Positions 275 through 21,345 of a stretch of 22,883 bases of DNA are shown piece by piece (the first letter of the stretch is position 1; each line of letters opens with the position of its first letter). Below the pieces are notes generated by a model. That model saw only the letters and a list, made by a program, of their open reading frames with translations, searched no databases and was not told the origin of the DNA. The translations under genes and the position numbers were made by a program. Source of the stretch: a virus; IMG/VR virus record IMGVR_UViG_3300033149_007083, positions 1 to 22,883 of that record, one strand, 5' to 3'.

Positions 275-985
275 TCAAGTCTTCTTTATTAGCTCAAAGA
301 CCCCTTTCCACCCATCCTTCTTAACCACCCTAGCTATGAGTAGATAAGAAGCCCAAAAATCTCTATCTATCCTAATATTCCGCAAATGTCCTACATCGTA
401 TTCCGTTATGATCTTTAACTTAAATCCAGAATCCGTAGCCTTACGAGTAAAGTAAACATCTTCTCCCCGCTTTATAGTAGTCTCTCCCTCCTTCTTCTCT
501 AAAACCTGAAACCAGGGCCTAGGAAGACTTTTCAAAACCTCAATTTTCACCATAAGGCAAGCCGCTCCCGTAGCTCCTGCCTCTACTAAATCCCCAAACT
601 TGTATTCCTTAAAAGGCTTCATCAATCTGTCTTCTTCCTTATGCCAAATAAGAGGATCATAAGGAGGATAGCCTCTGAAGCATAAAACCCCGGCTAAATC
701 TGCCCCTTTTGTTTCTAAGACTTCCGTCATATCCAAAAGACACCTCTGAGGAAAAACCATGTCTCCGTCTAAATACACTACATGAGTCATCCCCATTCCC
801 ACTGCGGCAGCAGATTGCATCTCCCTTTTCTCTGCTATATCTCCTCCCCTGGGGGACTGAAGAATAGTCAAATTTTGAGGGCGGTACATAGACATCAAAG
901 AGAGATATGTGTCGGAATGTATATATGACCACGATAAAGGCATAGCTATTCCCAAATGCATATCCTTTGGAAAAGTAAAACTCAT
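275..985 (-). CDS. GT-A fold glycosyltransferase inside the tail operon
   Basis: A 236-residue protein with the layout of a small GT-A glycosyltransferase. It has an N-terminal strand (HLGIAMPLSW), then YLDGDMVFP near residues 71-78, where D73-G-D75 fits the DxD metal and sugar-nucleotide motif. GATGAACLMVK follows near 137-147, then GEDVYFTRKATDSGF near 174-188, an acidic acceptor-site motif common in family-2-like enzymes. H200 could be a late metal ligand. There is no signal peptide or membrane segment, so it should act in the cytoplasm. Its start overlaps the stop of the tail terminator gene (ATGA), which implies co-translation with structural genes. It probably glycosylates a virion component; donor and acceptor are unknown. 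Confidence 0.75.
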   Translation of the reverse strand: MSFTFPKDMHLGIAMPLSWSYIHSDTYLSLMSMYRPQNLTILQSPRGGDIAEKREMQSAAAVGMGMTHVVYLDGDMVFPQRCLLDMTEVLETKGADLAGVLCFRGYPPYDPLIWHKEEDRLMKPFKEYKFGDLVEAGATGAACLMVKIEVLKSLPRPWFQVLEKKEGETTIKRGEDVYFTRKATDSGFKLKIITEYDVGHLRNIRIDRDFWASYLLIARVVKKDGWKGVFELIKKT

Positions 986-2426: not shown

Positions 2427-2972
2427 TTACCTACTTCGATAAAGATCCAGCACAAACTTCACAGACGGAAGAAGAGGAGAAGTATCAAAGGAAATAGACC
2501 CATCCGGATATGTCCTAGAAGGAATCCCAATATTTCCCTTAACCCCCTCCCTCAACATCTTAACAACCTGCTCAACACAGGCTTGCTTCAAATCCACTGG
2601 GGCCGTAGTATACCCCCCGGTATAGGATATTTTCACATTTCTGTTGCCAGCGGCAAGGGTAAAGTCGATAATGACTATCCCGTTATCATAGTCCACGGAT
2701 ATATCCTCAGCATCTACCTCATCCCCACTCCCAAATTCCCTATCCGGGTCTTCCCAAACCTGGACTGCAGGAGAGCTAGAAATAGGATACCTCTCAACAA
2801 AATACCTAGAGTACCCTCCATCAAAGTACTCTACAGAGGCTGCAGAAGAAAAAACCCTCCCACAGTAGTTCTCGAACATTTTTGTGACTCTAGAAACAAG
2901 AGAATCCACCAAGGAAGAATCCGCATCTACCTTGTAAAAGTCTAAAACCTCTTGGGCTGTTGCAAGAATCAT
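2427..2972 (-). CDS. gp6-like head-tail connector (adaptor) protein
   Basis: A 181-residue protein matching the phage gp6-like connector family. The N-terminus reads ILATAQEVLDFYKVDAD and SLVDSLVSRVTKMFENYCGR, the helical pair found in these adaptors. A beta hairpin region (FDGGYSRYFVERYPI, then VWEDPD) follows, then NVKISYTGGYTTAPVDLKQA, whose Y-x-G-G-Y-x-x-x-P-x-D-L-x-Q-A pattern is typical, and a final helix. Twelve copies normally dock under the portal after DNA packaging. Its ATG overlaps the stop of the GT4 gene (ATGA), so this neck gene is translationally coupled to the glycan cassette, which is unusual. Confidence 0.85.
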   Translation of the reverse strand: MILATAQEVLDFYKVDADSSLVDSLVSRVTKMFENYCGRVFSSAASVEYFDGGYSRYFVERYPISSSPAVQVWEDPDREFGSGDEVDAEDISVDYDNGIVIIDFTLAAGNRNVKISYTGGYTTAPVDLKQACVEQVVKMLREGVKGNIGIPSRTYPDGSISFDTSPLLPSVKFVLDLYRSR

Positions 2973-3943
2973 ATCCTTCCTCCCATTATTTCCACCAACC
3001 TCTCAGCGGATTTTTTCCAAGTGAATTTTCTCTTCACCAAAAAGCTGCCCTTTGATCCTCTCCTTACAGCTTCCTTGTAGTTATTATAAACGAAAAACAT
3101 CTGAGAAGCTAGTCCCTCTACGTCTGGAAAAGCTATTTGAGTTACCTCTTCCCTCTTATCCCCAATAAAAGTAATCTTCCCCTCCCCTAACTTGTAACCA
3201 ATAGGGAATCCAACGTCCTCAGAAAAGAAGTCTGTAACCCCGCTATAGTTGGTGGATATACAAGGAAGTCCGGTAGCCATTGCCTCTAAAAGGGTCAATC
3301 CAAAACCCTCTCCCCTAGTTGGAAACAAAAAACAATGAGAGGAACGATAAAGTTTTATCAACTCTTCTCTAGACAAATCTCTACCATCCACTACCACGTT
3401 CCCCATTCTTTGTATCCCACCAACACGGGTTGTCTTTAAATACAATTCCAGCTGCGAATAAAACTTAAATCCAAGAGTATTCCAAACTACAGAAATCTCT
3501 TCATACCCCTTCCTTGGATTAGGAGCACCTACCCATAAATACCTGAATTTCCTGTTCTTCGGAAAGGAACGCTTTTTAAATTTAAAAGCAGACTCTACTC
3601 CATGAGAACAAATTTCCGTGCGGGAGGGGGCAAAATATTTGTCAAAAATTTCTTTAACAAAGGTAGAAGGAACAATAAAATGGTCTATTCCCTTCATCTT
3701 CTCTCTATAGACTTCCGGGATAGTATTCCCCTCAAACATAGAGAAAAGAAAGGTAGGGAGTTTTGGCCTTTTTTCAGGAAGCATATCCGGAGATGTTATA
3801 TACAAAACCGCGTCTGCTTCTTCCGGAGAATCTACAATAGGAACTATACGGGATACTTCTTTTCTCAAGCACTCATTATGAACCCGATACCCATAGGCAT
3901 TCCCTATGTTCCCTTTGTAGTCCGTAGCCCAAAATATTTTCAT
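2969..3943 (-). CDS. GT4-type (GT-B fold) glycosyltransferase
   Basis: A 324-residue retaining glycosyltransferase of the GT4 type. The C-terminal half has the nucleotide-sugar binding signature: FLFPTRGEGFGLTLLEAM near residues 206-222, with E212 and E220 forming the E-x7-E motif, then GLPCISTNYSGVTDF. The start of the C-terminal Rossmann domain is RYLWVGAPNPRKGYE near 134-148. The N-terminal domain carries FLFSMFEGNTIP and IVPSTFVKEIF, typical of acceptor-side helices. No membrane segment is visible. It overlaps the genes on both sides by four bases, so it belongs to a coupled set with the methyltransferases and the connector. It probably adds one sugar of the virion glycan; substrate unknown. 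Confidence 0.85.
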   Translation of the reverse strand: MKIFWATDYKGNIGNAYGYRVHNECLRKEVSRIVPIVDSPEEADAVLYITSPDMLPEKRPKLPTFLFSMFEGNTIPEVYREKMKGIDHFIVPSTFVKEIFDKYFAPSRTEICSHGVESAFKFKKRSFPKNRKFRYLWVGAPNPRKGYEEISVVWNTLGFKFYSQLELYLKTTRVGGIQRMGNVVVDGRDLSREELIKLYRSSHCFLFPTRGEGFGLTLLEAMATGLPCISTNYSGVTDFFSEDVGFPIGYKLGEGKITFIGDKREEVTQIAFPDVEGLASQMFFVYNNYKEAVRRGSKGSFLVKRKFTWKKSAERLVEIMGGRI

Positions 3944-4641
3944 TCTTTTTCTCTATAAGCAACAATATCCCACGGGAGGTTCGTTCCTACTCTTTCAGGA
4001 AAGGAAGCAACCCTCCATTTATAACCCTCTGGCAGTCTCCCTATAATATCCATCTGGTCTGAAAAGCCGTGATCCCTTAATGCAGGAAGATTCACTTCTA
4101 TATAAAGGACTGGGGAACAATCCCTAAAAGTCTTTTTCATTCCATCTAAGACAAAGGGTTCCGTTCCTTCACCGTCAATTTTAACAAAAGAACAATAAGA
4201 AAGCCTCAAATCGTCTAGCTTTATACTAGGTATCCCATTGTCGCTTTCCCTAACTTGTCTCCCTCCTTTATTCTCTCTTGTCATGGTTCTGTCTTCATGA
4301 AAACAAGATAATTTCCTCCCATCACCAACAGCCATAGAATAGCAAAGGGCTTCCGGACAATTATGAAGAAGACAAAAGAAAGCGTCCTGATAAGGCTCAA
4401 AAGCTATAACCTTACAACCAAGGTCTAAAAACAACCTTGTGTAATCCCCTATAAAGGCTCCCACATCAATAACTGTGTTCCCTGGCTTTAGGACCTCTTT
4501 TATTTCCGGTATCTCCTGCATTTCCCTTTCATACACAATAGACCCAGCTTTCTTGTACCACCTTTTTGTGAAAAGGTCTCCCTTTAAACAAAAGAAATCT
4601 GTATTAGGAACCCGCTCAGCCCATTCGGGAATTTCTCCCAT
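3940..4641 (-). CDS. FkbM-family SAM-dependent methyltransferase
   Basis: A 233-residue FkbM-type methyltransferase. Motif I is VIDVGAFIGDYT at about residues 57-68, the acidic loop is AFEPYQDAF near 80-88, and the family hallmark VKIDGEGTEPFVLDGM lies near 153-168, followed by SPVLYIEVN. FkbM enzymes O-methylate sugars and other small acceptors, so with adjacent glycosyltransferases this one likely caps or decorates the glycan. I chose ATG at 4641 because a GGGGG-type ribosome site lies 8-10 bases upstream. The frame could open 18 bases earlier at a TTG, but that would overlap the upstream gene. Confidence 0.85.
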   Translation of the reverse strand: MGEIPEWAERVPNTDFFCLKGDLFTKRWYKKAGSIVYEREMQEIPEIKEVLKPGNTVIDVGAFIGDYTRLFLDLGCKVIAFEPYQDAFFCLLHNCPEALCYSMAVGDGRKLSCFHEDRTMTRENKGGRQVRESDNGIPSIKLDDLRLSYCSFVKIDGEGTEPFVLDGMKKTFRDCSPVLYIEVNLPALRDHGFSDQMDIIGRLPEGYKWRVASFPERVGTNLPWDIVAYREKE

Positions 4642-4642
4642 T

Positions 4643-5200
4643 TTAAAGACCCCCTTCAATAATGTCTTTTACTTCCACCTGTAGCATATGTACTTGGTTT
4701 CCAGAAGCACGAGGAATCAACAAGTAAGGAATTGATTTTCTTTCCAATAGACGTATCACAAAAGGGCCTTTCTTTACATTTTTATCTACAGGAGAAAAAG
4801 CATCGTCAATCACAATTATCCCGCTTTTATACATACGCGGAAAAAGTTCACAAAATTCTTGAAGAGTGTTTTCAGATTCGTTTACTGCATCTAAAAACCC
4901 AAGCATAAAAAGAGGCTCCACTTTCAACCTCCTTAAAAAAGTTACCCCTTTCATACAAGATTGCCTTACATTCTTTATTCCCATTTCTCCACAAATTCTT
5001 TTACACTCCCGAACAGCGTTCTGATTAACATCAACGGTTTCTATGCTCCCTATATTAGCAACACTTTTCGCCATAAGAAAAGTACTTCTATGACCATAAG
5101 TATTTGAAGACGTCCCGGATTCAAAAATCTGGATACTCCCAAACCGCTTTTTTAAAATTTCAATAGCGTCCAACAAAGGCTTCATAGGCTCTACTTTCAT
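4643..5200 (-). CDS. Class I SAM-dependent methyltransferase-like protein
   Basis: A 185-residue protein with a class I methyltransferase outline. A loop (IFESGTSSNTYG, residues 24-35) replaces the usual E-x-G-x-G-x-S motif I. IETVDVNQNAVRECKRIC near 53-70 is the strand and helix that contact SAM ribose. LFMLGFLDAVNESENT near 97-112 is like the D-x-x-x-I-D-x-x-H region of Methyltransf_24-type enzymes, and SGIIVIDDAF near 130-139 completes the core. Motif I is degenerate, so catalytic activity is less certain than for the FkbM neighbour. One base separates its stop from the FkbM start. A sugar methyltransferase in the same pathway is the likeliest role. Confidence 0.65.
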   Translation of the reverse strand: MKVEPMKPLLDAIEILKKRFGSIQIFESGTSSNTYGHRSTFLMAKSVANIGSIETVDVNQNAVRECKRICGEMGIKNVRQSCMKGVTFLRRLKVEPLFMLGFLDAVNESENTLQEFCELFPRMYKSGIIVIDDAFSPVDKNVKKGPFVIRLLERKSIPYLLIPRASGNQVHMLQVEVKDIIEGGL

Positions 5201-5216
5201 ATTTCCTCCCTTTCTA

Positions 5217-7769
5217 TCATCTCAGCCAAAAACTCCTCAAATTTCTCATTCGTCTTTGTATCGGTGCTGGATGATCCCCATCAAAAGGGAAAGTATGGGA
5301 TTTACTGCTCAGAGGCCAAGGGCCGTACCCATTCCCCTCTAGTTCTTTCCTTTTCTCAGGAACCCATTTAGAAAAGAAATTCTCGTACCAGCCCTCATGA
5401 TCTACATCACTAAAGTGAGGAACCCTACTATACATCTCCACCTTCTGTTTCACCTTGTAGTCGTATATATAAGAATAGTGATAGAAAAAAACCCCCAACT
5501 CTAAGGACTCTTCTGGAGAGATTACTTCCTCACTAGACAAAGAACCGTCCGTGTATCTAAGAGTAGGTGGATTATGGGTTGCAAAAACCGCCCCAGGCTC
5601 AAATTTAAAAATCCTTCTTATTCCGCCATTCCTATAGAGACGGTCATCCTCAAAACAATAATCAAAACCCTTAAAGAAGTGCTTAGCAAAAAAACGAACC
5701 TCTTTAACAGACGGCCTGTTTTTTATCAGGTCTATAACCTTATCAATATCCTCTTCCTTCCAAATTTCATCAGAATCTATCTGCCAAACATAATCCCCAC
5801 TCACCTGATCCATAAAGTAATTTTGCATCTCTACTCGACTATTCCATTTACTATTAACCATCTTTATTTTCTTTTTGGGATCAGGGAACTTCTTAATAGC
5901 CTGTACAGTACCGTCGGTAGAACCTCCCCGCTTTGTAGCAAACTCATATGCTTCTGGAACCGCTCCCTCTACAATAAAAATCTCATAAGCCTTATCATAT
6001 ATAGCTTCTAAACACGGTTCTACAAAAGGCATCCCGTTCCAAACAATCATAAGAAAGGAAAGCTTGGGGTCCGGGGCCTTCTTTTGAAATTCCTCTGGAG
6101 TACCCCAATCACTATCAATAACAGGACATAAATGTTCATCTCCCCAAGAATGAAAATACCTCCTCCCATATCCTATACCTAGCTGCTCCACCAAATTAGC
6201 TACACAACTATCCACACAGGCTATAGAAGAAGCCCCCTCCAGAACCCCAATCCAATCAAAAAGAGTAAAACCTTCTATCTCTTCCACTTCTACGGAACCA
6301 GGAACATCAAAGTCAAAAGACCCCCTGGTCCCCTTAGAATGAGTAACTACGTACCTGTTTGGTAAGCCTAAAAGCTCCTTAAGCTCCCTCTCTTTCTTGA
6401 AATTCCTATTTATAACAAGATTGTACTTATTGTGAAAAGGAACCCCAGCCTCTCTATACTTCCAGCGATCAAAAGAGAGACCAGAAGCCCTCCATTTAGA
6501 ATCCAATTTCTTATTTCCAAATCCTATAGAGAGATCCAGGATAGGAATATCTTTCAATATTACCTTAGCTTCCACGGGAGACGTAGATCCCAAACTATAT
6601 GCCTTCACATAATTCACATATTCAAAAAGAGGAAAGAACTCAGAAGCAACCGGCCAATGGACCTCATACCCAGCATCGTGATACCATTTGGCTATGGGAA
6701 GGGTTATGATAATATCTCCAATCCTCCCAGGCTGTACTATTCCTATCTTTGGCCTAGATTTCCTTTCCTTCCTGGCCTTTTTCATCTCCCCCTTCCAATC
6801 AATGCGCAACCTCTCCTTTTCCGACATAGTAAAGAGGGAAGCATTATAGATGGAATCTGGATCCGAGTATTCCCAATTCCTCTTATGCTCCGCATGCCAA
6901 ATCTCATCATATCTCATATCTACATTATCTTTCCCCAGGTTGACCCAAGACCAAACAGTAAGGGCACTATCCCAGGTGGGTGATCCTATGATCGCATCTG
7001 GGAACTCACGTATAATTTTCTTTAGGGTCTCCTTATCGCATACAAACCCGTCTTTCCCCACAAAAACCGTAGTACCTCCACCGGAAAAAGAATAGGCAGT
7101 TCCTGGAGGGATGTCTAACCTGTGGAAAAAGGCAATTTTCTTTCCAAGAGAGGGAAGGAGGGAAAAAATAGACCTACCAGGAGGGAGAATGACATCACTA
7201 TTAAAAAATCCATAAAAATCTTCATTGGGGAAAAGCTTGATAAATCTCTTTAGGAAATCCCCCAAAAAAGGTTTTGTCTTCTTTACCCCTTTTATCTTGG
7301 TAGCGTTTTTTTGAGAGTAAAGCTGACTACAAACCCCGGAGCCAGGAGGAATAATTCCAGGATCGGTAAGACCAAATACGACTTCAGGAAAAATCCAAGT
7401 AGAGACTGCTTCCTTGACAAGAGGGTTTCCCTCAAAATAGGGAATAAGAATTTTTACCTTCTTCTCTTTTTGTAAGGGGAGAAAACCTTTTTTCAAAGAG
7501 GAAGATTTCACCTTCACAGTGGAAAAAGAACCTCCTCCAACCAGAGAAAAAATAGACCCTCCACAGGAATGAACAAGGTTTACTTCTTTTCCTATAGGAA
7601 GGGTAAACTTTTTTTCACATTTACTACACTGGAAAAAGGCAAATATATCCTTACTCCCAGAAATTATACCGATGTGGGACCCACATTTTTGACAGGAACA
7701 ATTGATAGGAACGTCTTTACGGACCGTTAGAAAAGAATGACAGGAAGAACACTCTATGGTAATAAACAT
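5217..7769 (-). CDS. Multidomain glycosyltransferase: zinc ribbons, GT-A-like, GT9-like and GT2 domains
   Basis: An 850-residue fusion. Residues 1-75 hold two zinc-ribbon units (C7, C10, C24/C26, C29; then C48, C51, C69). Residues about 105-310 look like a GT-A domain: VKILIPYFEGNPLVKEA, then DFYGFFNSDVILPPGRS, where N-S-D is in the DxD position. Residues 341-545 resemble the GT-B heptosyltransferase family (GT9): KIGIVQPGRIGDIIITLPIA, then VVTHSKGTRG and a late helix IACVDSCVANLVEQLG. Residues 568-790 are a GT2 domain (LSFLMIVWNGMPFVEPC, DGTVQAIKKF, YVWQIDSDEIW with the D-S-D motif near 665-667). It could perform successive transfers on one glycan. The gene starts four bases after the upstream stop. 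Zinc ribbons on such an enzyme are uncommon and may bind a protein acceptor. Confidence 0.8.
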   Translation of the reverse strand: MFITIECSSCHSFLTVRKDVPINCSCQKCGSHIGIISGSKDIFAFFQCSKCEKKFTLPIGKEVNLVHSCGGSIFSLVGGGSFSTVKVKSSSLKKGFLPLQKEKKVKILIPYFEGNPLVKEAVSTWIFPEVVFGLTDPGIIPPGSGVCSQLYSQKNATKIKGVKKTKPFLGDFLKRFIKLFPNEDFYGFFNSDVILPPGRSIFSLLPSLGKKIAFFHRLDIPPGTAYSFSGGGTTVFVGKDGFVCDKETLKKIIREFPDAIIGSPTWDSALTVWSWVNLGKDNVDMRYDEIWHAEHKRNWEYSDPDSIYNASLFTMSEKERLRIDWKGEMKKARKERKSRPKIGIVQPGRIGDIIITLPIAKWYHDAGYEVHWPVASEFFPLFEYVNYVKAYSLGSTSPVEAKVILKDIPILDLSIGFGNKKLDSKWRASGLSFDRWKYREAGVPFHNKYNLVINRNFKKERELKELLGLPNRYVVTHSKGTRGSFDFDVPGSVEVEEIEGFTLFDWIGVLEGASSIACVDSCVANLVEQLGIGYGRRYFHSWGDEHLCPVIDSDWGTPEEFQKKAPDPKLSFLMIVWNGMPFVEPCLEAIYDKAYEIFIVEGAVPEAYEFATKRGGSTDGTVQAIKKFPDPKKKIKMVNSKWNSRVEMQNYFMDQVSGDYVWQIDSDEIWKEEDIDKVIDLIKNRPSVKEVRFFAKHFFKGFDYCFEDDRLYRNGGIRRIFKFEPGAVFATHNPPTLRYTDGSLSSEEVISPEESLELGVFFYHYSYIYDYKVKQKVEMYSRVPHFSDVDHEGWYENFFSKWVPEKRKELEGNGYGPWPLSSKSHTFPFDGDHPAPIQRRMRNLRSFWLR

Positions 7770-7773
7770 GATT

Positions 7774-8064
7774 CTATATTCTCCTCATTACCAACTCCTT
7801 CTTTTTCTTTTCTTTCTTTTCTTCTTTAGGAGTAATTACCCAGAGAGTTCCAAAAGATCCAGAACAATGACGGATATTCATTTCCTCTCCCTTCTTCAAC
7901 TCTACAGGCTCTCCAAACCGGTCTCCTCCAATAAAGGGTTTGGCTATTACATCCTTGTTAAAAGAAACCCTCTCTACAATTCTCTCTGGATGACAAAGAG
8001 AAGAAAGCTCCCCTTCTAAAAAACTCAAAGACTTCTTCAGCTCAGGATAGTAGGCTTTAATCAT
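7774..8064 (-). CDS. Unknown 96-residue protein at the head of the glycan cassette
   Basis: I do not recognise this protein. The body is mixed, with helix near PELKKSLSFLEGELSSL and a beta-prone section (NIRHCSGSFGTLWVITP). It ends in a highly charged tail, EEKKEKKKKELVMRRI. The ribosome site GGAGGTGAT is one of the strongest in the window, and its ATG overlaps the stop of the zinc-ribbon gene (ATGA). It comes right after the capsid gene and its terminator, where decoration proteins are sometimes encoded, but nothing in the sequence proves that. It may equally be a partner of the 850-residue enzyme that follows four bases later. Confidence 0.55.
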   Translation of the reverse strand: MIKAYYPELKKSLSFLEGELSSLCHPERIVERVSFNKDVIAKPFIGGDRFGEPVELKKGEEMNIRHCSGSFGTLWVITPKEEKKEKKKKELVMRRI

Positions 8065-8240
8065 TTTTTAATCACCTCCCGGTTCCTAGGTTTTTCTACG
8101 AGCTTGGAAAAACAAAAAGGACATATCCTATTTAGCAATAAGTCCTTATCCATAGGACGCAGAAATGTTCTTTTGAAGGAACAAGATTTGTTCGAACAAA
8201 CCAAATAAATGAGGCGCTTTCCTGGATTGTCAGTAATCAT
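8061..8240 (-). CDS. Small zinc-ribbon protein (59 residues)
   Basis: A short open frame starting at ATG 8240 and ending in an ATGA overlap with the next gene. The protein has two cysteine pairs, C15-x4-C20 (VCSNKSCSF) and C40-x2-C43 (RICPFCFSKL), which fit a zinc ribbon, and a basic C-terminus. No clear Shine-Dalgarno site is seen, because the start lies only 13 bases after the terminator hairpin of the capsid gene. The same cysteine style opens the 850-residue glycosyltransferase two genes later. Small zinc ribbons can act as adaptors or nucleic-acid binders; the role here is unknown. Confidence 0.6.
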   Translation of the reverse strand: MITDNPGKRLIYLVCSNKSCSFKRTFLRPMDKDLLLNRICPFCFSKLVEKPRNREVIKK

Positions 8241-8252
8241 TCTGTTGTAATT

Positions 8253-8278
8253 AAGCGGGGGGATTAAACCCCCCGCTT
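8253..8278 (-). terminator. Strong hairpin after the capsid gene, probable (partial) terminator
   Basis: A perfect 10-bp stem (AAGCGGGGGG with CCCCCCGCTT) and 6-base loop lie 13 bases after the capsid stop codon. The tail on the minus strand is TTAATTAC, so the U-tract is weak. It probably limits read-through from the highly expressed capsid gene into the glycan cassette, or protects the capsid mRNA 3' end, rather than stopping the operon completely. No promoter is evident between it and the next gene. Confidence 0.7.
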
Positions 8279-8290
8279 ATTTTGAGAAGA

Positions 8291-9718
8291 CTACGAAGCA
8301 GCAGTCAAAAGCCTTACAAAGGCGTTCGGAAGCGGCATGGAGCATCCCCACCTATTGTAAATCTTGAACGCCGTTCTGTTGGTCGTCCAAGCCAGATAGG
8401 GGTTTACGCTCAGCGTGGTGCTTCCCAACCTACGGCCCCAATAGAAGTTCCGCAAGTTTCCGAAGGCGACAAACGCCGTATTAGCTGCAGACGTCCCGGT
8501 AATCTTTACGCACTCCCTATAGGGAAAGCCCCAAATAGCCCCAGGAACGCTGGAGCCTACAGTCTCCATAAAGATGGGACGGTTGTTGTCATCCTTAAGA
8601 GACCGGATGTAATGAAGAGCCACGCCGTTGAAGTAGAACTTGGCGCCGTTCTTCCTTACGCCGTCCAACTTGGAGATCATCTCAGAGAGGTGAGTGCCCG
8701 TCAAGTTGGAAAAGGCTGTAGAGCCGGAGTCCATCTGGACAGAGTACCCGCACTTAGCAGAGAGGATACCGGAACAGCTGTTAGAGCCGGTCCCGTTAAA
8801 CATCTCGTTGTCAAGCTCCTGACCAATAGCGTTCCCCATCAAGTCGGTAATCCAGGAAACGATGTCAGAAGTCGCATCCGCCAACTGGGTGTTACGAACC
8901 TTGGAGTAAGCCGAAAGCTCTTTGGCTTCAATCTCAACCTCGGAGATGGTCGGATCGGACTCCTCAGTAGTATTACCCCAAGCCACCGCAACTCCGGAAC
9001 CCTCCAACGGCCAGCTGACTTTCTCCGAAGTCATATCTACGATATTGGCCTCCTGAAGAGCAATCGAAGACTCCCTTGCATAATGGAGAATCTCCACCAT
9101 GAGGGGGTCAGGAACCGGGAATACGTTCCCAGAGTCCCCAATTTCCGTAGTACCGGTCTTAGCCTCTCCATACCTCTCCCGAAAGAGAGCCTGCGCCCTA
9201 GGATCGTCCTGGAACCCAGCCTTAATAAAAAGGCACATAAACTTCGCCAATTCCTGGCGGGTTTCCTCAGACATGGTATGGCGAGAGTGAACAAGGACTC
9301 GATCCTGAAGCCTTTTACCCTGGACGGCCATATTGAAACCCTTAAGAATTTCATCCAGCTCATCCTTGGTTCCGGCCTCTTTCGCTTCCTCTGAACCCGG
9401 CATTACGAAACCGCGCTTTGCGGCCTCTCGGTATTTGGAGATTTCCTCTTCAATCTCCTCCTGCTTGTCCTTAATACCACTAATGCCGCCGGCAAGCTCC
9501 GAAATAACCCCAGCCAGTTCCTTAATAGAATCCTCAGCCTGTACCGCAGCGGTCTTCCCTTCCGGAGCCTCCTCCAAAGAAAGGGTTTCCGCAACTTCCT
9601 GGGCCACCTCTTTCAGAGAATCACCCACATAGGTGTACTTGGCGATGGATTCGTCCTTAACCTGTTCCGGGGTAGCCATTACGAATACCCCATCTTCTGT
9701 TTTGATAAAGAGTCTCAT
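8291..9718 (-). CDS. HK97-fold major capsid protein
   Basis: A 475-residue major capsid protein. Residues about 50-135 are a charged, helical segment (KDKQEEIEEEISKYREAAKR) like the HK97 delta domain that acts as internal scaffold and is cut off by the protease. The mature part carries typical HK97 features: GDSGNVFPVPDPLMVEIL, ANIVDMTSEKVSWPLEG, then ELDNEMFNGTGSNSCSGIL, and the C-terminal NRTAFKIYNRWG. The gene is visibly more GC-rich than the glycan genes beside it and favours different codons, as expected for a highly expressed gene. I kept the first ATG, with AAAGGGGT upstream. A second ATG 13 codons in, also with a G-rich site, could be the true start. Confidence 0.92.
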   Translation of the reverse strand: MRLFIKTEDGVFVMATPEQVKDESIAKYTYVGDSLKEVAQEVAETLSLEEAPEGKTAAVQAEDSIKELAGVISELAGGISGIKDKQEEIEEEISKYREAAKRGFVMPGSEEAKEAGTKDELDEILKGFNMAVQGKRLQDRVLVHSRHTMSEETRQELAKFMCLFIKAGFQDDPRAQALFRERYGEAKTGTTEIGDSGNVFPVPDPLMVEILHYARESSIALQEANIVDMTSEKVSWPLEGSGVAVAWGNTTEESDPTISEVEIEAKELSAYSKVRNTQLADATSDIVSWITDLMGNAIGQELDNEMFNGTGSNSCSGILSAKCGYSVQMDSGSTAFSNLTGTHLSEMISKLDGVRKNGAKFYFNGVALHYIRSLKDDNNRPIFMETVGSSVPGAIWGFPYRECVKITGTSAANTAFVAFGNLRNFYWGRRLGSTTLSVNPYLAWTTNRTAFKIYNRWGCSMPLPNAFVRLLTAAS

Positions 9719-9722
9719 TTCT

Positions 9723-10748
9723 TTACCCCTTTAGTCTTTTTACAGCACTCTTCAACGTATCTAAAGCCTCGTCGAGAGCAGCCGTGTTTATCGGTTCCTT
9801 CCTTTTATCCTTAAAACCAAGAAGAGAAGTATAGAGTTCTTTAGGGATTGTTGCTTCCACACAAGATTCCTTAGATTTCTCCAGAATCTGTTCAAAAGCC
9901 CTGTCTATTTTCTCTTCCAGTTCTTCAAAAAAGCAGTTGATCCTCTTTTCTATTTCTCCAAACAACTTCTCGGTAAGAATATCGAACTCCTTTCCAATGT
10001 CTGCTATATACCCTTTTTCTTTTTCCTCGTCAACCCCCTCTTCCCCCTTAACACCAATATCTTCTTCCACTGGAATCCAAATGGGTCTCTCTTCCTTCGG
10101 TATGTCTACCTGAAAGTTTCTGACCTCCAACTCTCCCAGCAAATCGTCCTCCCTCTCCGGCCTTGGAATATCATAGCCGGTAAGCATTTCCGCCATTTTT
10201 GAAGGAGTACCCCCTCCTTTCCCACCCAAAAAGTTTTGGAGGGCTGCAGGATTCGAGGGGACCGGAACGCCGCTAAGCTCAAGAAGCTCCTGTTTCAAAA
10301 ACTTAGTTCTCCCTTCTTCTTCATCCTTCAAAGGCTCCCATTTAGTAGGAAGGAACCCAACAGAGGAGGCATTTATGATTTTCTCCTTATATAATTCAAA
10401 AATCATATCCGCAAAAGGATACAACCCCTCAGTGGGAAATCGAATCTGGAACTCCAAATGAGGGAAAGGAACCCTCTTCTGAACAACCTTTGAAGCAGCC
10501 CCAATAGGAACGCTCCAATAGTCGTGAGCCCAAAGGAAAACAGGGTTCTTCCTGTAGTTTGTTAAATCCCAACCGGAAACAGAGATTACGTCTCCGTCCC
10601 TATCCTTATCCTCAGTGCTTCCTACAATAGAGAGGATCCTCTTGTCCTTATCCACACTCTTTACAGATCCAGAGAAAGTGGATTCCAATACCTCTTTCCC
10701 TTTAATCTCAACCACCTCTCCATCGGATAATTTCAGTTTCTTAGCCAT
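9723..10748 (-). CDS. Prohead maturation protease (HK97 gp4 / S78 type)
   Basis: A 341-residue serine protease of the prohead type. The core reads SIVGSTEDKDRDGDVIS, GWDLTNYRKNPVFLWAHDY with the likely catalytic His75, and IINASSVGFLPTKWEPL with the likely catalytic Ser128 or Ser129. LLELSGVPVPSNPAAL follows, the usual C-terminal core signature. Residues beyond about 200 are acidic and helical, and may be a scaffold or regulatory extension. I chose ATG at 10748, with GGAGGGAGAA upstream. It overlaps the portal stop by eight bases. The frame stays open 13 codons further, but that start would lie inside the portal gene without a good site. Confidence 0.9.
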   Translation of the reverse strand: MAKKLKLSDGEVVEIKGKEVLESTFSGSVKSVDKDKRILSIVGSTEDKDRDGDVISVSGWDLTNYRKNPVFLWAHDYWSVPIGAASKVVQKRVPFPHLEFQIRFPTEGLYPFADMIFELYKEKIINASSVGFLPTKWEPLKDEEEGRTKFLKQELLELSGVPVPSNPAALQNFLGGKGGGTPSKMAEMLTGYDIPRPEREDDLLGELEVRNFQVDIPKEERPIWIPVEEDIGVKGEEGVDEEKEKGYIADIGKEFDILTEKLFGEIEKRINCFFEELEEKIDRAFEQILEKSKESCVEATIPKELYTSLLGFKDKRKEPINTAALDEALDTLKSAVKRLKG

Positions 10749-12933
10749 TTTCTTCTCCCTCCCTAGCAATCCTGCAACCAAAATCAAAAGCAGACAAAAC
10801 TTCGACCTTGGCTACATCTTTTGCCCTTGTATTCACCTGGTTAAATATACCCTTAACATCACCCTCATCGAAATCGCTCTCTACAACCCGCAAACAAACC
10901 TGCCTCCTAATAACTCCAACTATCTCCTTCACCGCCTCCATCTTTGAAAGAAGGAAATCGGAAAGAGTTCCATCTCCAGACAAGGTTTTGTTCGGGGATG
11001 TAGAAAAAAACCCCCTACTCACCGCTTCCTTATATAAAGGAAACAAGAAATTTTGAAGCTGGAGGGTTTCCCTTTCAAACGAATAGGAAAGAAGATCTGA
11101 TTTAATAAGCTCCAAAGACTTCTTTCTCATCTCATAAAAAACCCTTCTGAGTTTTCCCCTAAAAGACTCCTCCAAATCCCCAATTATATGGGAAGTCCCG
11201 TCTGGAAGGGCTTTTATCTCCTTCTGTCCTTCTAAAGACCTCTCCTCAGAATCCAACAGAGGCATAGAGCCGTCCTCTGCAACCGGGACCATATTTATAG
11301 GAATATACCATCTATCCCTCCAGGGCTTATTATCAAACCCCAACCCCAAACGGGAGTTTATCTCCCCAGCAGTGAACCCCATCTTAAAAAGCTTCTCTCC
11401 TGTATCTACCTTGTCCGAAAAGGTATCATGAAGGGCCTCCACATTGGATACATCAAAGGAAAAACGGTTTTCTCCTGAAGATAGAAGAACAGAACCCAAT
11501 CCAGACTCAATGAGTTTCATGATAGGGATATTTGTTCCTCTCCACCACATCTTTATTTGTTCCCGGCTAGTGTTATGAACAACAATCCCATTACAAATAA
11601 AGTTGTGCCGCCCTTCAACCTCTAAATCATAAACTTCCTCTTCTTCCCCTTCTTCAATAGACATCACCTTTGAGACACCAAAATCAGGAGGGAGTATCTT
11701 AGATACATCAAGACCATTGAGGGGTTCTACCTCAGAAGCTACTACAACAAAATCCCCAACCCCTATCTTCTCTACCTGCCTCCAGACAAGCTCCTCACCT
11801 TCCAAAACCAAAACCGGGTGGTCATAACTAGCCCTAAGAGAAAAGTTTGCTGTTTTCAAGGAAAAGACCTTCTTCTTCCCCTGGAACCAAGAATTTACAA
11901 CCTTCCTTTTCTCTAATCCTTTCTCTCCCAAAGTCCAAACCTCAGAACCGGGTTCCACTTCTGCTATCGAACGGGGACCATAAGGAGTAAGAACCCTCTC
12001 GGTAGCAGGAATGCAAGCATAGTTAATGTCAGCACTGATAGAAAGTACCGCCTCCTTCATCCCAAAAACCTGAAGGATTGACTGACGGCTATATTTCCGG
12101 AGTTCAAGATACTCCATATCCTTATGACTTAGCCCAGTCTGGGTATATTTAAGACCCTGCTCCAGAACTGCAACCTTATGGGACTTCTCCACCCCCTTAT
12201 GTCTTTCTTCAAATTGACCTTTTATCCTATCAAAGGTTCTCTGAGAAATCCTCTGGTCCGTATGAAGAACCCCCCCAGGAACCGCCCCTTCTTCAAAAAA
12301 CTTCTTGTTGTAAAGGGCAGCCTGGTAATCAGAGGTCAAGCTCATCTTCCCCGCCTCCAACGGAGAAAGACCCTTATAAGGGTTATAAGGATTCCAGAAG
12401 TAGACTCTTGAGACTTCCTCATTGGTAAGAAAAATAGAAGGGGTGGAGTTGTCCTGCAGGTCCGGCATATACTTCCAGCCAATAAGATGTCCAGTCTTCT
12501 TTTCCTTTACTCCCTCCATATACTTGGAACGCACCACCCAAAGAGACTGGGGGTTTCCAGACCCAGGAGGGAAAGGCACTACAAAAACCTCTCCATCCAA
12601 TAAGAGGAAACCAACCATAGACTCAATGAAGCTATACCTATCCATATACGGGTTAGGGTTCCAAATAAGCTGTTGCCAAGGGTTTGTTTCCTCTACCGGC
12701 CTTCTCCCTCCAGGACTATCCGGGTTTGGTTCCGTAACAACTAAAGGAACCTGGCTAATAGCCCTCCCGGTAGTCGAAATACAGATATAGACAAGCTCCA
12801 TTTTCTTATAGCTTTCCGTAAGAGCCTGTTCTGTAGAGCCTTCGGGAAGGGGAAGGTTTCTATAGAACCAATTGGAGAGGGCGGTCTTAGAGACCGTTTT
12901 AGAAACCCCCAATATTTTTTGTAACCTATTCAT
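10741..12933 (-). CDS. Portal protein interrupted by a mini-intein
   Basis: The precursor is 730 residues. Removing the intein (307-454) leaves about 582, somewhat longer than most HK97-type portals. Portal features are the early helix and MELVYICISTTGRAISQVPL (residues 46-65), WVVRSKYMEG, the SLTSDYQAALYNKKFFEEG helix (198-216), and the region ADINYA joined to TSREQIKMWWRGTNIPIM, which corresponds to the conserved N-x(n)-E-Q-x(n)-P-x-M segment of portals. The protein forms the dodecameric DNA gate and the packaging motor base. After the segment IPINMVPV, a C-terminal domain of about 180 residues is rich in charged helices. It overlaps the membrane peptide (ATGA) upstream and the protease downstream. 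Confidence 0.92.
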   Translation of the reverse strand: MNRLQKILGVSKTVSKTALSNWFYRNLPLPEGSTEQALTESYKKMELVYICISTTGRAISQVPLVVTEPNPDSPGGRRPVEETNPWQQLIWNPNPYMDRYSFIESMVGFLLLDGEVFVVPFPPGSGNPQSLWVVRSKYMEGVKEKKTGHLIGWKYMPDLQDNSTPSIFLTNEEVSRVYFWNPYNPYKGLSPLEAGKMSLTSDYQAALYNKKFFEEGAVPGGVLHTDQRISQRTFDRIKGQFEERHKGVEKSHKVAVLEQGLKYTQTGLSHKDMEYLELRKYSRQSILQVFGMKEAVLSISADINYACIPATERVLTPYGPRSIAEVEPGSEVWTLGEKGLEKRKVVNSWFQGKKKVFSLKTANFSLRASYDHPVLVLEGEELVWRQVEKIGVGDFVVVASEVEPLNGLDVSKILPPDFGVSKVMSIEEGEEEEVYDLEVEGRHNFICNGIVVHNTSREQIKMWWRGTNIPIMKLIESGLGSVLLSSGENRFSFDVSNVEALHDTFSDKVDTGEKLFKMGFTAGEINSRLGLGFDNKPWRDRWYIPINMVPVAEDGSMPLLDSEERSLEGQKEIKALPDGTSHIIGDLEESFRGKLRRVFYEMRKKSLELIKSDLLSYSFERETLQLQNFLFPLYKEAVSRGFFSTSPNKTLSGDGTLSDFLLSKMEAVKEIVGVIRRQVCLRVVESDFDEGDVKGIFNQVNTRAKDVAKVEVLSAFDFGCRIAREGEENG
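11572..12015 (-). other. Mini-intein (148 residues) in the portal protein
   Basis: The in-frame segment has all splicing blocks. It begins with Cys (CIPATERVLTPYGPRSIAEV, block A), and block B is FSLRASYDHPVLV, with Ser in the place of the usual Thr of T-x-x-H. Block F is VYDLEVEGRHNFICNG and block G is IVVHN, followed by Thr as the first C-extein residue. The length of 148 residues leaves no room for a homing endonuclease, and no LAGLIDADG-like block is present. Self-splicing would join NYA to TSREQ in the most conserved portal segment. The boundaries are clear; activity is inferred from intact terminal Cys, His-Asn and Thr. Confidence 0.93.
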
Positions 12934-16018: not shown

Positions 16019-16399
16019 ATGATTACGATACTTTTTCCAAAAACTGACAACTGGAAGTCAAAACCCGCTGGCTGGCAGAAATGGGCCGAAAGAAACATCC
16101 GTGGCGTCAAAATTTATCGTCAAGATTGCCGGATTGTTTGCAATTTTTTGACAGACAAAACCAAGCCCAAGCCCAAAAACAAACTGGGTGGTTATCCTTG
16201 GGCAGTTCTCAACAAGCAACCGCTTTGGCGATTGCCCGGCAGTCCGGTTATCGGCAAAGGAAAGCGTACCAAATTCCGTATCTATTTCGGAACCCTTCAC
16301 GGCGAAAACTTGTCCGGATGCGTTGGTTCTATTAGCAAAACAAGCTTCTCACTTTACAAAAACGGACAGAAACTTTTTGAATTACAGGAGAAAATATAA
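16019..16399 (+). CDS. Paralogous small protein, family 1 type A (copy 1)
   Basis: A 126-residue protein starting MITILFPKTDN, with GGAGAAG upstream. It shares the family layout: an N-terminal K/T-I-x-F-P-K strand, WAERNIRGVKIYR (residues about 22-34), RIVCNFL, a variable middle, PVIGKGKRTKFRIYFGTLHG, ENLSGCVGSI, and a C-terminus LYKNGQKLFELQEKI. Where the others end LVELWGM this copy has FELQEKI, so it is the most diverged member. The pattern suggests a small all-beta domain. No enzyme motif is visible. Its stop overlaps the next start (TAATG), and that gene is its closest neighbour and paralog. Confidence 0.75.
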   Translation: MITILFPKTDNWKSKPAGWQKWAERNIRGVKIYRQDCRIVCNFLTDKTKPKPKNKLGGYPWAVLNKQPLWRLPGSPVIGKGKRTKFRIYFGTLHGENLSGCVGSISKTSFSLYKNGQKLFELQEKI

Positions 16400-16737
16400 T
16401 GATTACGATACTTTTCCCAAAAGAAGTTCATGGCCTTACGGTCCCGTCCCTCGGAAATATCTACCCTTTGCAAGCATGGGCAGAAGAAAATATCCGTGCG
16501 GTTGAGATCTACACGGACCGTAACAATCGGATTGCTTGCAACGTCATGGACTCCTGCGGCAAAATCATTGGCCCTATCGTGGGCCGGGGACAGGAGGATG
16601 ATTTTTCTATTTATCACGGCACTTTACACAGCCGAGACCTGAACGGATACAGGGCTTCAATCGGCGAAGCAATGCAGACGCCTTACTTTCTGCTTTGCAA
16701 AGATTCCGAAAAACTTCTGGAATTATGGGGGTTTTAG
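16399..16737 (+). CDS. Paralogous small protein, family 1 type A (copy 2)
   Basis: A 112-residue protein starting MITILFPKEVHGL, with AGGAG upstream. The family core is clear: LQAWAEENIRAVEIY, RIACNVMDSCGKIIGPIVGRGQ, EDDFSIYHGTLHSRDLNGYR, and the ending KLLELWGF. It shares the first seven residues with the preceding copy. It is translationally coupled to that copy and separated from the next gene by one base. The function is unknown. Compared with the copies at 17833 and 20559, the phrases G-P-I-x-G-x-G-x-E and G-T/S-L-x-x-x-D-L-x-G are in the same order. Confidence 0.78.
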   Translation: MITILFPKEVHGLTVPSLGNIYPLQAWAEENIRAVEIYTDRNNRIACNVMDSCGKIIGPIVGRGQEDDFSIYHGTLHSRDLNGYRASIGEAMQTPYFLLCKDSEKLLELWGF

Positions 16738-17220: not shown

Positions 17221-17289
17221 ACTATTTGCAAACATATCCAATTCCCAATACCGGAAAACCCTTTGCAACCAGTAATTATTCCTGATAAT

Positions 17290-17343
17290 AAAAAGTTAAT
17301 GATTTCAAGAGTTTACAAAAAGTTAATGATTTTAAGGGTTTAC
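17290..17343 (+). repeat. Two adjacent 27-bp direct repeats
   Basis: The unit AAAAAGTTAATGATTT..., 27 bases long and ending GTTTAC, occurs at 17290-17316 and 17317-17343 with two differences. The copies are directly abutted. No gene spans the site with any support. Confidence 0.85.
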
Positions 17344-17388
17344 GGAAAGGACCGGTCTTACTAATTCTAGGTATGCACCCAGGTACCA

Positions 17389-17696
17389 TTTTGGTTTCCA
17401 AATTGAAATTGAAACTGGGACTTGAAAACCAAAATTGGTTTTGAATCTTTGAATTTGAAATTGAAAACCAAAACTTGAAATTGAATCTTTGAATTTGAAA
17501 TTGAAAACCAAAATTGGTTTTGAATCTTTGAATTTGAAATTGAATCTTTGAACTTGAAAATTGGGACTTGGTTTTGAATCTTTGAATTTGAAATTGAAAA
17601 CCAAAATTGGTTTTGAATCTTTGAATTTGAAATTGAAAACCAAAATTGGTTTTGAATCTTTGAATTTGAAATTGAAATTGGGACTTGAAAACCAAC
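17389..17696 (+). repeat. 39-bp iteron-like tandem array with internal palindromes
   Basis: A roughly 39-bp unit built of CTTTGAATTTGAAATTG, GAAAACCAAAATTGG and TTTTGAAT repeats with variation. Unit starts are near 17447, 17487, 17526, 17580, 17619 and 17658, with a short variant at 17546. Four exact copies of AAAACCAAAATTGGTTTT (17425, 17504, 17597, 17636) form 8-bp inverted arms around two bases. Open frames run through on both strands only because 39 is a multiple of three and the repeats lack stops. It sits just upstream of promoter P2. It may be a replication origin, a partition site or an operator array. Confidence 0.9.
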
Positions 17697-17699
17697 ATG

Positions 17700-17735
17700 A
17701 ATCCCAGGTACAATCCCAGGTACAATCCCAGGTAC
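17700..17735 (+). repeat. Three 12-bp tandem repeats (AATCCCAGGTAC)
   Basis: The unit occurs at 17700, 17712 and 17724 without gaps, 16 bases before the -35 box of P2. CCAGGTAC also occurs singly near 17375, 19446 and 19917 in the surrounding non-coding DNA. It is a plausible regulator-binding array for P2. Confidence 0.85.
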
Positions 17736-17750
17736 CAATCGAAAAAAAGC

Positions 17751-17780
17751 TTTACTCCCAATAAAAAAATAGGTTATAAT
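17751..17780 (+). promoter_or_regulatory. Repeated promoter, copy P2
   Basis: TTTACT at 17751-17756, an 18-bp spacer, TATAAT at 17775-17780, then TCGGTAGCTCG. An A-tract (GAAAAAAAG) lies directly upstream, like an UP element. The leader contains TTGGAATTAAC, which recurs after P5. It drives the unit starting at 17833. Confidence 0.88.
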
Positions 17781-17832: not shown

Positions 17833-18153
17833 ATGTCTATCAAAATCTTTTTTCCGAAAGACCGACCGGCTTGGGGAGAAGGACCTCTTCAACTTTACGC
17901 CGAAGAAAATATCCTTGGCGTAGACGTGGCTAAGGAAGGAGGTGAAGTGACTTGTTCCTTCCTTTGTACTACCGGTTTCTTCCTTGACCCTATCTTGGGG
18001 AAGGGGGACGAGGAGGAGTTTGTGGTTACTTCCGGTTCCCTTAATAGGGAGGATTTGACCGGATGTACCGTGACTCTCGGTGAGGGTCATGGTGACTTGT
18101 ATGTCCTGATTCGGCGGGGTTCCGAGAACCTGGTCGAGTTGTGGGGGATGTAA
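17833..18153 (+). CDS. Paralogous small protein, family 1 type A (copy 3)
   Basis: A 106-residue acidic protein, first gene after promoter P2, with AGGAGATAGG upstream. It is the most compact type A member: MSIKIFFPKDR, LQLYAEENILGVDVAKEG, EVTCSFLCTTG, LDPILGKGDEEEFVVTSGSL, NREDLTGCTVTLGEG, and the ending RRGSENLVELWGM. The last 13 residues are almost identical to those of copy 5 at 20559. It is probably a small beta-domain protein, with no membrane segment and no catalytic motif. The gene that follows is a type B relative, making a tandem pair repeated at 20559-21345. Confidence 0.82.
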   Translation: MSIKIFFPKDRPAWGEGPLQLYAEENILGVDVAKEGGEVTCSFLCTTGFFLDPILGKGDEEEFVVTSGSLNREDLTGCTVTLGEGHGDLYVLIRRGSENLVELWGM

Positions 18154-18174: not shown

Positions 18175-18564
18175 ATGTCTACAAAAATCCTTTTTCTGGA
18201 AGACGGAGAACCGAGGAACGAACTGGAAAAGTACCTCTACCAAAACCTTCTCGCGGTGGTAGTCGTTGATTCCACTGATCCTCATTCAGACGTAGAAGAG
18301 GGTAGGGTTCTTGCTTCCTTCTACGGTAAGGACGGAGAGGAGCTTTTGATCGCCCGAAACGAGAGGGGGAGTCAAGAAAAGTTCTTTGTTGACGAGCTTG
18401 TACCCTTATGGGAAACGTCCCTCGAAGTTCAAGAGGTTCTCTCCAAAGTAAGAGTAGTACAAACCGGAGAATCCCGTGGAGACTCCTACCTTATCCTGAA
18501 GGCTGGGGACTCTGAAGTAACCTTTGGATACCCCGAAAACCTAGCGGAGATTTGGGGGATGTAA
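18175..18564 (+). CDS. Paralogous small protein, family 1 type B (copy 4)
   Basis: A 129-residue acidic protein, with TTAGGAGAG upstream. It keeps the ends of the family (MSTKILFLEDG, LEKYLYQNLLAVVVVD; NLAEIWGM) but has a longer middle: GRVLASFYGKDGEELLIA, GSQEKFFVDELVPLWE, VLSKVRVVQTGESRGDSYLIL. This middle matches the type B copy at 20986 (LLKTVEKVETGYMRGSSWMF) rather than type A. It is the second member of the pair under P2. A GC hairpin follows three bases after its stop. The function is unknown. Confidence 0.8.
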   Translation: MSTKILFLEDGEPRNELEKYLYQNLLAVVVVDSTDPHSDVEEGRVLASFYGKDGEELLIARNERGSQEKFFVDELVPLWETSLEVQEVLSKVRVVQTGESRGDSYLILKAGDSEVTFGYPENLAEIWGM

Positions 18565-20558: not shown

Positions 20559-20975
20559 ATGCCCACCAAAATCTTTTTTCCAAAAACTAGGGAAACCCAA
20601 GAAGAGTCTTTAACCAGCGAATCTTCCGTAAAGATGATTCTTCCAGGAACAGAAGAGGAAGAACCTTTAACCTGTGAAATGTCTGCAACAATGATTTTTG
20701 TAGAGCCTCCTCAACTTTTTGCCGAGGACCATCTTCTCGGAGTAGATATAATCAAGGAAGGAGAGGAGGTTATTTGTTCTTTCCTTCATACCAATGGTTC
20801 TTTTCTTCCTCCTATCTTAGGAGAAGGAGAGGAAACAAAGTTTACAGTAACCAAGGGAACTCTGAACGGAGAAGACCTTTGCGGGTGTCAAGTAGTCCTC
20901 AACGAGGGTCCAGACTATATTGACCTATTTATCCGGCGGGGTTCTGAAAACCTGGTAGAACTTCAAGGTATATAA
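20559..20975 (+). CDS. Paralogous small protein, family 1 type A with N-terminal insert (copy 5)
   Basis: A 138-residue acidic protein right after promoter P3, with AAAAAGGAG upstream. It begins MPTKIFFPKTRE like the others. An insert of about 40 residues follows, in which the phrase LTSESSVKMILPGTEEEE is echoed by LTCEMSATMIFVEP, apparently an internal duplication. It then resumes the type A core: LFAEDHLLGVDIIKEGEEVI, CSFLHTNGSF, PPILGEGEETKFTVTKGTL, EDLCGCQVVL, and RRGSENLVELQGI. It is closest to copy 3 at 17833. The function is unknown. Confidence 0.8.
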   Translation: MPTKIFFPKTRETQEESLTSESSVKMILPGTEEEEPLTCEMSATMIFVEPPQLFAEDHLLGVDIIKEGEEVICSFLHTNGSFLPPILGEGEETKFTVTKGTLNGEDLCGCQVVLNEGPDYIDLFIRRGSENLVELQGI

Positions 20976-20985
20976 GGAGGCTTTT

Positions 20986-21345
20986 ATGTCATTCAAAATC
21001 TTCTTTGTCGGTCAGGATAGGGAAGCCAAGAATCCTTTGGAAGAGCACCTTTTTGATAATCTTCTCGGAGTGTTTGTTATGGACCATGAGACTGACTGTT
21101 CTGATCTTGGTCCTGGGGAGGTTTTTCTTAGTAAGGGGGGTAAAGAGGAGGTCTCATTCTCCTATCCTCAAAAAGGGAACAAAGATGAGTTCCTTGTCTC
21201 CGATCCCAAAGCCTCCTTCTCTGGTCCTGTTTTTGATTTGTTGAAAACCGTTGAAAAGGTAGAGACTGGTTATATGCGTGGATCCTCTTGGATGTTTATG
21301 TTCAATTCCTCCGGGTCAAAAATTGTAGAGATGTGGGGATTGTAA
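20986..21345 (+). CDS. Paralogous small protein, family 1 type B (copy 6)
   Basis: A 119-residue acidic protein with a strong AAGGAGG site. The family start MSFKIFFVGQD, the segment EEHLFDNLLGVFVMDHE and the ending KIVEMWGL tie it to the type B copy at 18175, along with a shared middle (GNKDEFLVSD, LLKTVEKVETGYMRGSSWM). Type B always follows type A in the P2 and P3 units, which suggests that the pair functions or was duplicated together. Its TAA overlaps the next ATG (TAATG). Confidence 0.8.
   Translation: MSFKIFFVGQDREAKNPLEEHLFDNLLGVFVMDHETDCSDLGPGEVFLSKGGKEEVSFSYPQKGNKDEFLVSDPKASFSGPVFDLLKTVEKVETGYMRGSSWMFMFNSSGSKIVEMWGL

Follow-up and report, generated by a model that had tools for sequence, protein, structure and literature searches.

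Why would a virus keep sugar-transferring and methylating enzymes among the genes that build its head? Phage-encoded glycosyltransferases (GTs) are usually explained by DNA protection or by changes to the host wall. We addressed this question in an uncultured virus of microbes whose complete IMG/VR record, 22,883 bases long, is called the window here. Its minus-strand head operon reads small terminase, large terminase, portal (with an intein), protease, major capsid protein (MCP), island, adaptor, tail terminator, and an extra GT. The island comprises 5.3 kb with six tightly coupled genes between the MCP gene and a phrog_442 adaptor gene (Table 1). An earlier note had described six such genes between capsid and connector genes, overlapping or nearly abutting, with the last running over the connector start; the open reading frames, the profile matches of both flanks, and the junctions (-17 to +16 nt) agreed with this description. 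The 59-aa and 96-aa genes overlapped by 4 nt (8061-8064), gaps of 4 nt and 16 nt preceded and followed the 850-aa gene, and the 185-aa and FkbM genes overlapped by 17 nt, given the TTG start of FkbM (an in-frame ATG lies further downstream). Overlaps of 4 nt joined the FkbM gene to the GT4 gene and the GT4 end to the adaptor start (2969-2972).

Table 1: Features of the capsid/adaptor interval and the detached GT gene in the window.
Feature	Position	Strand	Evidence
MCP, HK97 fold, upstream border	8291..9718	-	Phage_capsid 7e-40, phrog_10 2e-43
Hairpin between MCP stop and island	8252..8279	-	fold -24.6 kcal/mol, z -5.18
59-aa zinc-ribbon-like protein	8061..8240	-	C-x4-C / C-x2-C motifs
96-aa protein	7774..8064	-	ORF; same-place relatives with CxxC zinc-ribbon motifs
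850-aa multidomain protein	5217..7769	-	predicted C-terminal GT2 domain, 7e-10
Probable class I SAM methyltransferase, Methyltransf_24-like, 185 aa	4643..5200	-	E 0.016
Predicted FkbM-family methyltransferase, 239 aa	3940..4659	-	PF05050 2.8e-10, phrog_8156 5e-24, TIGR01444 1.3e-17
Predicted GT4 glycosyltransferase, 324 aa	2969..3943	-	PF00534 7.5e-15, phrog_2170 3e-33
Head-tail adaptor phrog_442, downstream border	2427..2972	-	2e-17
Second, detached GT (very probable), phrog_1574 family, behind tail terminator	275..985	-	GT-A type motifs DxD, ED, H

Elsewhere in the operon, the portal gene (10741-12933) was split by an in-frame intein at approximately aa 307-455 (TIGR01443 1e-8, TIGR01445 3e-5, both above the cut-off). 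The portal of a relative, L325 (1081 aa), likewise carried an intein, and the large terminase of L325 was enlarged (917 aa) with a sub-threshold intein match.

The island proteins were compared with those of relatives, that is, contigs whose terminases were 45-50% identical in a terminase-alignment search: L321 (G008), L322 (G002), L323 (G005), L324 (G006), and the pair L184 and L188 (G004 and G007). The GT4 enzyme proposed before the connector gene was borne out as a solid profile assignment, with its catalytic motif E-x7-E at E212/E220. In four relatives, homologues of 43-51% identity immediately preceded the adaptor gene (49-52% identity was obtained for L322 and L321), and the family profile matched chlorovirus B736L in the PDB (6e-9). 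Two methyltransferases had also been proposed. The FkbM prediction is solid in both Pfam and TIGR profiles, whereas the Methyltransf_24 assignment of the 185-aa protein is weak; at the position of the latter, L321 carried two Methyltransf_24 genes (1.7e-13 and 1.2e-5). Neither methyltransferase of the window had a clear orthologue in the nearest relatives. Hydropathy analysis detected no membrane segment in any island enzyme.

The 850-aa protein, which the earlier note had taken for a triple glycosyltransferase, reads as zinc ribbons at the N-terminus, then a GT-A-like region with an NSD motif, a GT9-like region, and a C-terminal GT2 domain (aa 572-685). Its profile match makes the GT2 domain a firm GT assignment. 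The two upstream regions resemble GTs at the motif level only and are mostly unproven as such; they matched no glycosyltransferase model in Pfam, PDB, or NCBIfam, and the triple reading was therefore dropped as a firm claim, leaving one GT domain with profile support. GT9 (heptosyltransferase) was likewise abandoned for approximately aa 336-560, no PF01075 match being found up to E 10 in G000, G002, and G008. AlphaFold2 gave a pLDDT of 35 for the whole protein and of 37 for aa 1-575 with three sequences. Homologues in L322 and L321 were 45-48% identical, and tblastn against annotated phages returned no match. The zinc-ribbon gene of the earlier note corresponded to the 59-aa protein, which we graded as zinc-ribbon-like; L321 and L322 had Cys-rich ORFs of similar size at this position. 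Relatives also had counterparts of the 96-aa protein (100-102 aa, 30% identity) where expected.

The detached gene extends this enzyme set; neither it nor the hairpin after the MCP was among the features listed in the earlier note. Its family, phrog_1574, very probably consists of GT-A glycosyltransferases, because DxD and ED were invariant and the family profile matched Mnn9 (3e-6) and STIV A197 (6e-4) in the PDB; a likely function can thus be offered for a family labelled unknown in PHROG. L321 and L322 each had a homologue (51% identity) following the tail terminator gene. Among T7-like contigs, the family stood behind the MCP in 64 of the 68 with that side visible, usually followed by a SU10-type adaptor. 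The same arrangement behind the MCP was found in annotated phages, namely three Manatee Spring phages and Microcystis phage Mel-JY34; in the window, the gene adjoins the tail terminator and not the MCP.

L321 and L322 also carried an island at this site, and their adaptors were 42-45% identical to that of the window. The order in L321 was MCP, small ORFs, a 1350-aa protein, a Methyltransf_11 methyltransferase, the two Methyltransf_24 genes, GT4, and adaptor; L322 had the same order, but its GT2 domain was a separate gene. Alignment with L322 revealed that the 1350-aa protein was an 850-aa homologue with an inserted B12-binding/radical-SAM part, and both of these domains were profile-confirmed in a 1058-aa protein of L322. 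L323 carried B12-radical-SAM, radical-SAM/SPASM, and three GT4-type genes, and L324 an epimerase, a B12-radical-SAM gene, and three GT4-type genes; in both, two tandem GT4s preceded the adaptor. In these islands, then, the two ends, formed by the N-terminal part of the 850-aa protein and by GT4, are retained, while the methylating genes between them are swapped. The island of L322 also encoded, just before its GT4, a NUMOD3 (homing-endonuclease-type) protein (L322:10622-11119), which is a possible agent of island mobility.

The earlier note had suggested a comparison with related phages lacking the insert, and such phages were found. None of these island genes occurred in L184 and L188, which at the same site (L184:16766-18234, L188:15823-17292) encoded proteins of the virion structural family phrog_1731 (2e-23), weakly matching Phage_cement_2; capsids might thus be coated either with decoration proteins or with glycans. 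In the terminase tree, this pair was nested among island bearers, indicating either loss of the island in this pair or more than one gain. The MCP-adaptor gap measured 0.3-0.8 kb in the more distant L192, L246, L259, and L297, compared with 5.3-8.6 kb where the island was present, and the island is thus an addition. Scans of viral contigs with the MCP, 850-aa protein, or terminase as single proteins returned no relatives, whereas alignment-based scans did find some. Searching genome contigs with the MCP alignment gave no match, and the terminase alignment matched mostly Chloroflexota MAGs at 27-41% identity, which is too distant for naming a host.

We then asked how widely the site is used in this way. 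The MCP matched that of Pontimonas phage phiPsal1 (MG835450), the two capsids being homologous at 28% identity, and phiPsal1 carried a GT4, a methyltransferase, and a GT2 at the corresponding site. The two loci share the position between MCP and phrog_442 adaptor, a GT of phrog_2170, a GT2, and a SAM methyltransferase. In contrast to the window, phiPsal1 has a separate small GT2 in place of the 850-aa fusion, a methyltransferase of another family, and neither zinc-ribbon genes nor FkbM; moreover, the GT4 directly follows the MCP in phiPsal1-type loci, whereas it comes last, directly before the adaptor, in the window. The source paper of phiPsal1 expressly leaves the phage undiscussed. A capsid alignment of the window and phiPsal1 retrieved 80 viral contigs, 51 of which showed both MCP and adaptor borders. 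All 51 had a GT4 in the gap and 37 had a GT2, although the contigs belong to a single lineage of capsids, which falls into 16 clusters at 90% identity and 4 at 70%, and are not 51 independent events. The remaining gap genes encoded a second GT2, cytidylyltransferase-like and sugar-nucleotidyltransferase-like proteins, an NDP-sugar epimerase, Methyltransf_24/RMNT_CmcI (rhamnosyl) O-methyltransferase-like proteins, and radical-SAM/SPASM proteins. Microcystis phage Mae-JY09 likewise had a GT4 at the capsid/adaptor site. Matches of the GT4 to Streptomyces phages were set aside as precedents, being located outside the head genes. The repeated placement behind a capsid gene points to the particle itself as the target.

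Virion glycosylation is already known from a few laboratory phages, and Corndog is a known case of head genes that include coupled O-methyltransferase and GT genes. Cluster O phages Corndog and Dylan resemble the window in that an O-methyltransferase gene (TylF/Methyltransf_24) is coupled to GT genes within the head operon; their block lies between portal and protease, whereas the island lies between MCP and adaptor, and the family profiles of the window enzymes matched no Dylan protein at E <= 10. The Corndog enzymes were detected in infected cells and not in virions. According to a citing paper's account of Freeman 2023, virion proteins of Corndog, Che8, and Myrna are glycosylated, those of Che8 (cluster F) by a GT that the phage itself encodes. 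Maravista (F1, related to Che8) has its GTs near the genome 3' end, outside the head operon, whereas those of the window are inside. As in Corndog, the window has a predicted sugar O-methyltransferase-type SAM enzyme (FkbM and, weakly, Methyltransf_24) coupled to GTs among head genes, and with its predicted GT4 and GT2 it shares the phage-encoded GTs of the Corndog and Che8 systems. Outside tailed phages, STIV, which has a glycosylated coat, and chloroviruses encode GTs linked to capsid glycans (A197, B736L, and A064R), as proposed for the window, and A064R unites GT and O-methyltransferase domains in one protein. These are archaeal and algal viruses, similar to the window GTs at the superfamily level, and the acceptor of A197 and the sugar of B736L are themselves unproven.

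Expression of the island with virion proteins had been part of the original proposal. This held insofar as the island shares an operon with the adaptor; simple co-expression with the capsid did not, as a conserved hairpin punctuates the transcript after the MCP. The G+C-rich hairpin has 11 bp and is a probable attenuator or mRNA 3'-end punctuation. A hairpin followed the MCP in 47 of 48 phiPsal1-lineage contigs, compared with 3/43 after GT4, 0/30 after GT2, and 1/30 after the adaptor. Downstream of the MCP of L323 (L323:4200-4340), a long and very stable hairpin (-64.6 kcal/mol, z -4.1) was followed by a T-run. Since phage T7 likewise has a terminator after its capsid gene, such punctuation is probably common to capsid genes in general. 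The island-less L184 and L188 had no significant fold after the MCP, but two phages are too few for tying the hairpin to the island. The conserved hairpin implies that island and adaptor lie downstream of a valve and are not expressed at the capsid level. No Rfam match was obtained, and promoter-like sites in the head operon were at the shuffle level.

Taken by itself, this position fits any late-expressed function. We nevertheless consider it probable that the island and the 275-985 gene form a virion-glycosylation island in the late operon, which would place a methylated glycan on virion proteins. This reading is favoured because the enzymes appear soluble, their position is tied to the capsid in at least two unrelated lineages, virus GTs are among the PDB matches, and Corndog provides a precedent. 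The earlier proposal of capsid or tail glycosylation with a methylated sugar is thus the best supported. We infer the acceptor, sugar, order of transfer, O-methylation, and biological role as follows. GT4, the 850-aa protein through its GT2 domain, and the 275-985 GT-A enzyme would assemble a short glycan on at least one virion protein, most likely the capsid and next the tail tube, drawing on cytoplasmic nucleotide sugars of the host. O-methylation of this glycan would fall to the FkbM and Methyltransf_24-type enzymes, and the hairpin behind the capsid gene would let the capsid outnumber the enzymes. A shield or receptor-binding role for the glycan is speculation.

The enzymes could instead alter host surface polysaccharide during infection, blocking superinfection or readsorption to debris. 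Such a role is often given for phage GTs of this broad kind, prevention of superinfection is cited in the literature, and the NCBIfam neighbours of the GT4 gene are polysaccharide GTs. However, the enzymes lack membrane segments, no flippase or polyprenol-linked partner was seen among their neighbours, and the genes accompany the capsid in at least two lineages rather than early, lysogeny, or lysis genes, so that we regard a host-surface role as unlikely. Slightly less likely still is that the gap simply tolerates the insertion of cargo genes (morons) with products unrelated to the virion. The cement-like phrog_1731 genes of L184/L188 and the homing-endonuclease motif of L322 would suit such a site, but its cargo was overwhelmingly of one class (GTs, methyltransferases, sugar-nucleotide enzymes, and radical SAM), and the GT4 was missing from none of the 51 contigs. 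Glycosylation and methylation of phage DNA bases, or of small molecules in the cell, is very improbable: DNA protection, like host-wall change, has been offered for GTs of isolated freshwater actinophages, but no thymidylate-synthase/hydroxymethylase-type enzyme (PF00303), the companion expected in T4-type DNA glucosylation, exceeded the cut-off in the window and seven related records, most of them fragments (L323 had a weak thymidylate-synthase match below it), the island enzymes look more like GTs for proteins or polysaccharides and like O-methyltransferases for sugars, and their location is capsid-linked.

If virion glycosylation is the correct reading, virions that are glycosylated and methylated would be widespread in uncultured phages, and exchanging islands would offer a fast route to new particle surface chemistry. 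A bolder and decidedly tentative extension is that the capsid/adaptor gap serves as a dedicated island for capsid glycans, filled independently by unrelated tailed phages, in which the GT end is kept and the tailoring middle is swapped as in a bacterial O-antigen locus; the B12-radical-SAM enzymes fused or coupled to GTs in some relatives could then put radical-made (e.g., C-methyl) sugars on particles. We know of no virion with such radical-made sugar changes. The literature searched, mostly without subscription journals, contained no report of the capsid/adaptor site recurring as a locus for glycosylation and no description of a zinc-ribbon/GT fusion or of B12-radical-SAM enzymes at this site.

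Outside the head operon, direct repeats, whose units contain TTTGAATTTGAAATTGAAA, lay in a low-GC stretch at 17276-17761, and the ORFs called across them are probably spurious. On the plus strand, a promoter-like repeat of 60 nt (TTTACT - 18 nt - TATAAT) occurred five times in front of genes (17080, 17742, 20490, 21763, and 22613); these copies are probably early promoters. Small plus-strand genes (106-138 aa; 16399-16737, 17833-18153, 18175-18564, 20559-20975, and 20986-21345) gave no PHROG match where tested, and their common start and end motifs suggest that they are apparently a family of paralogues.
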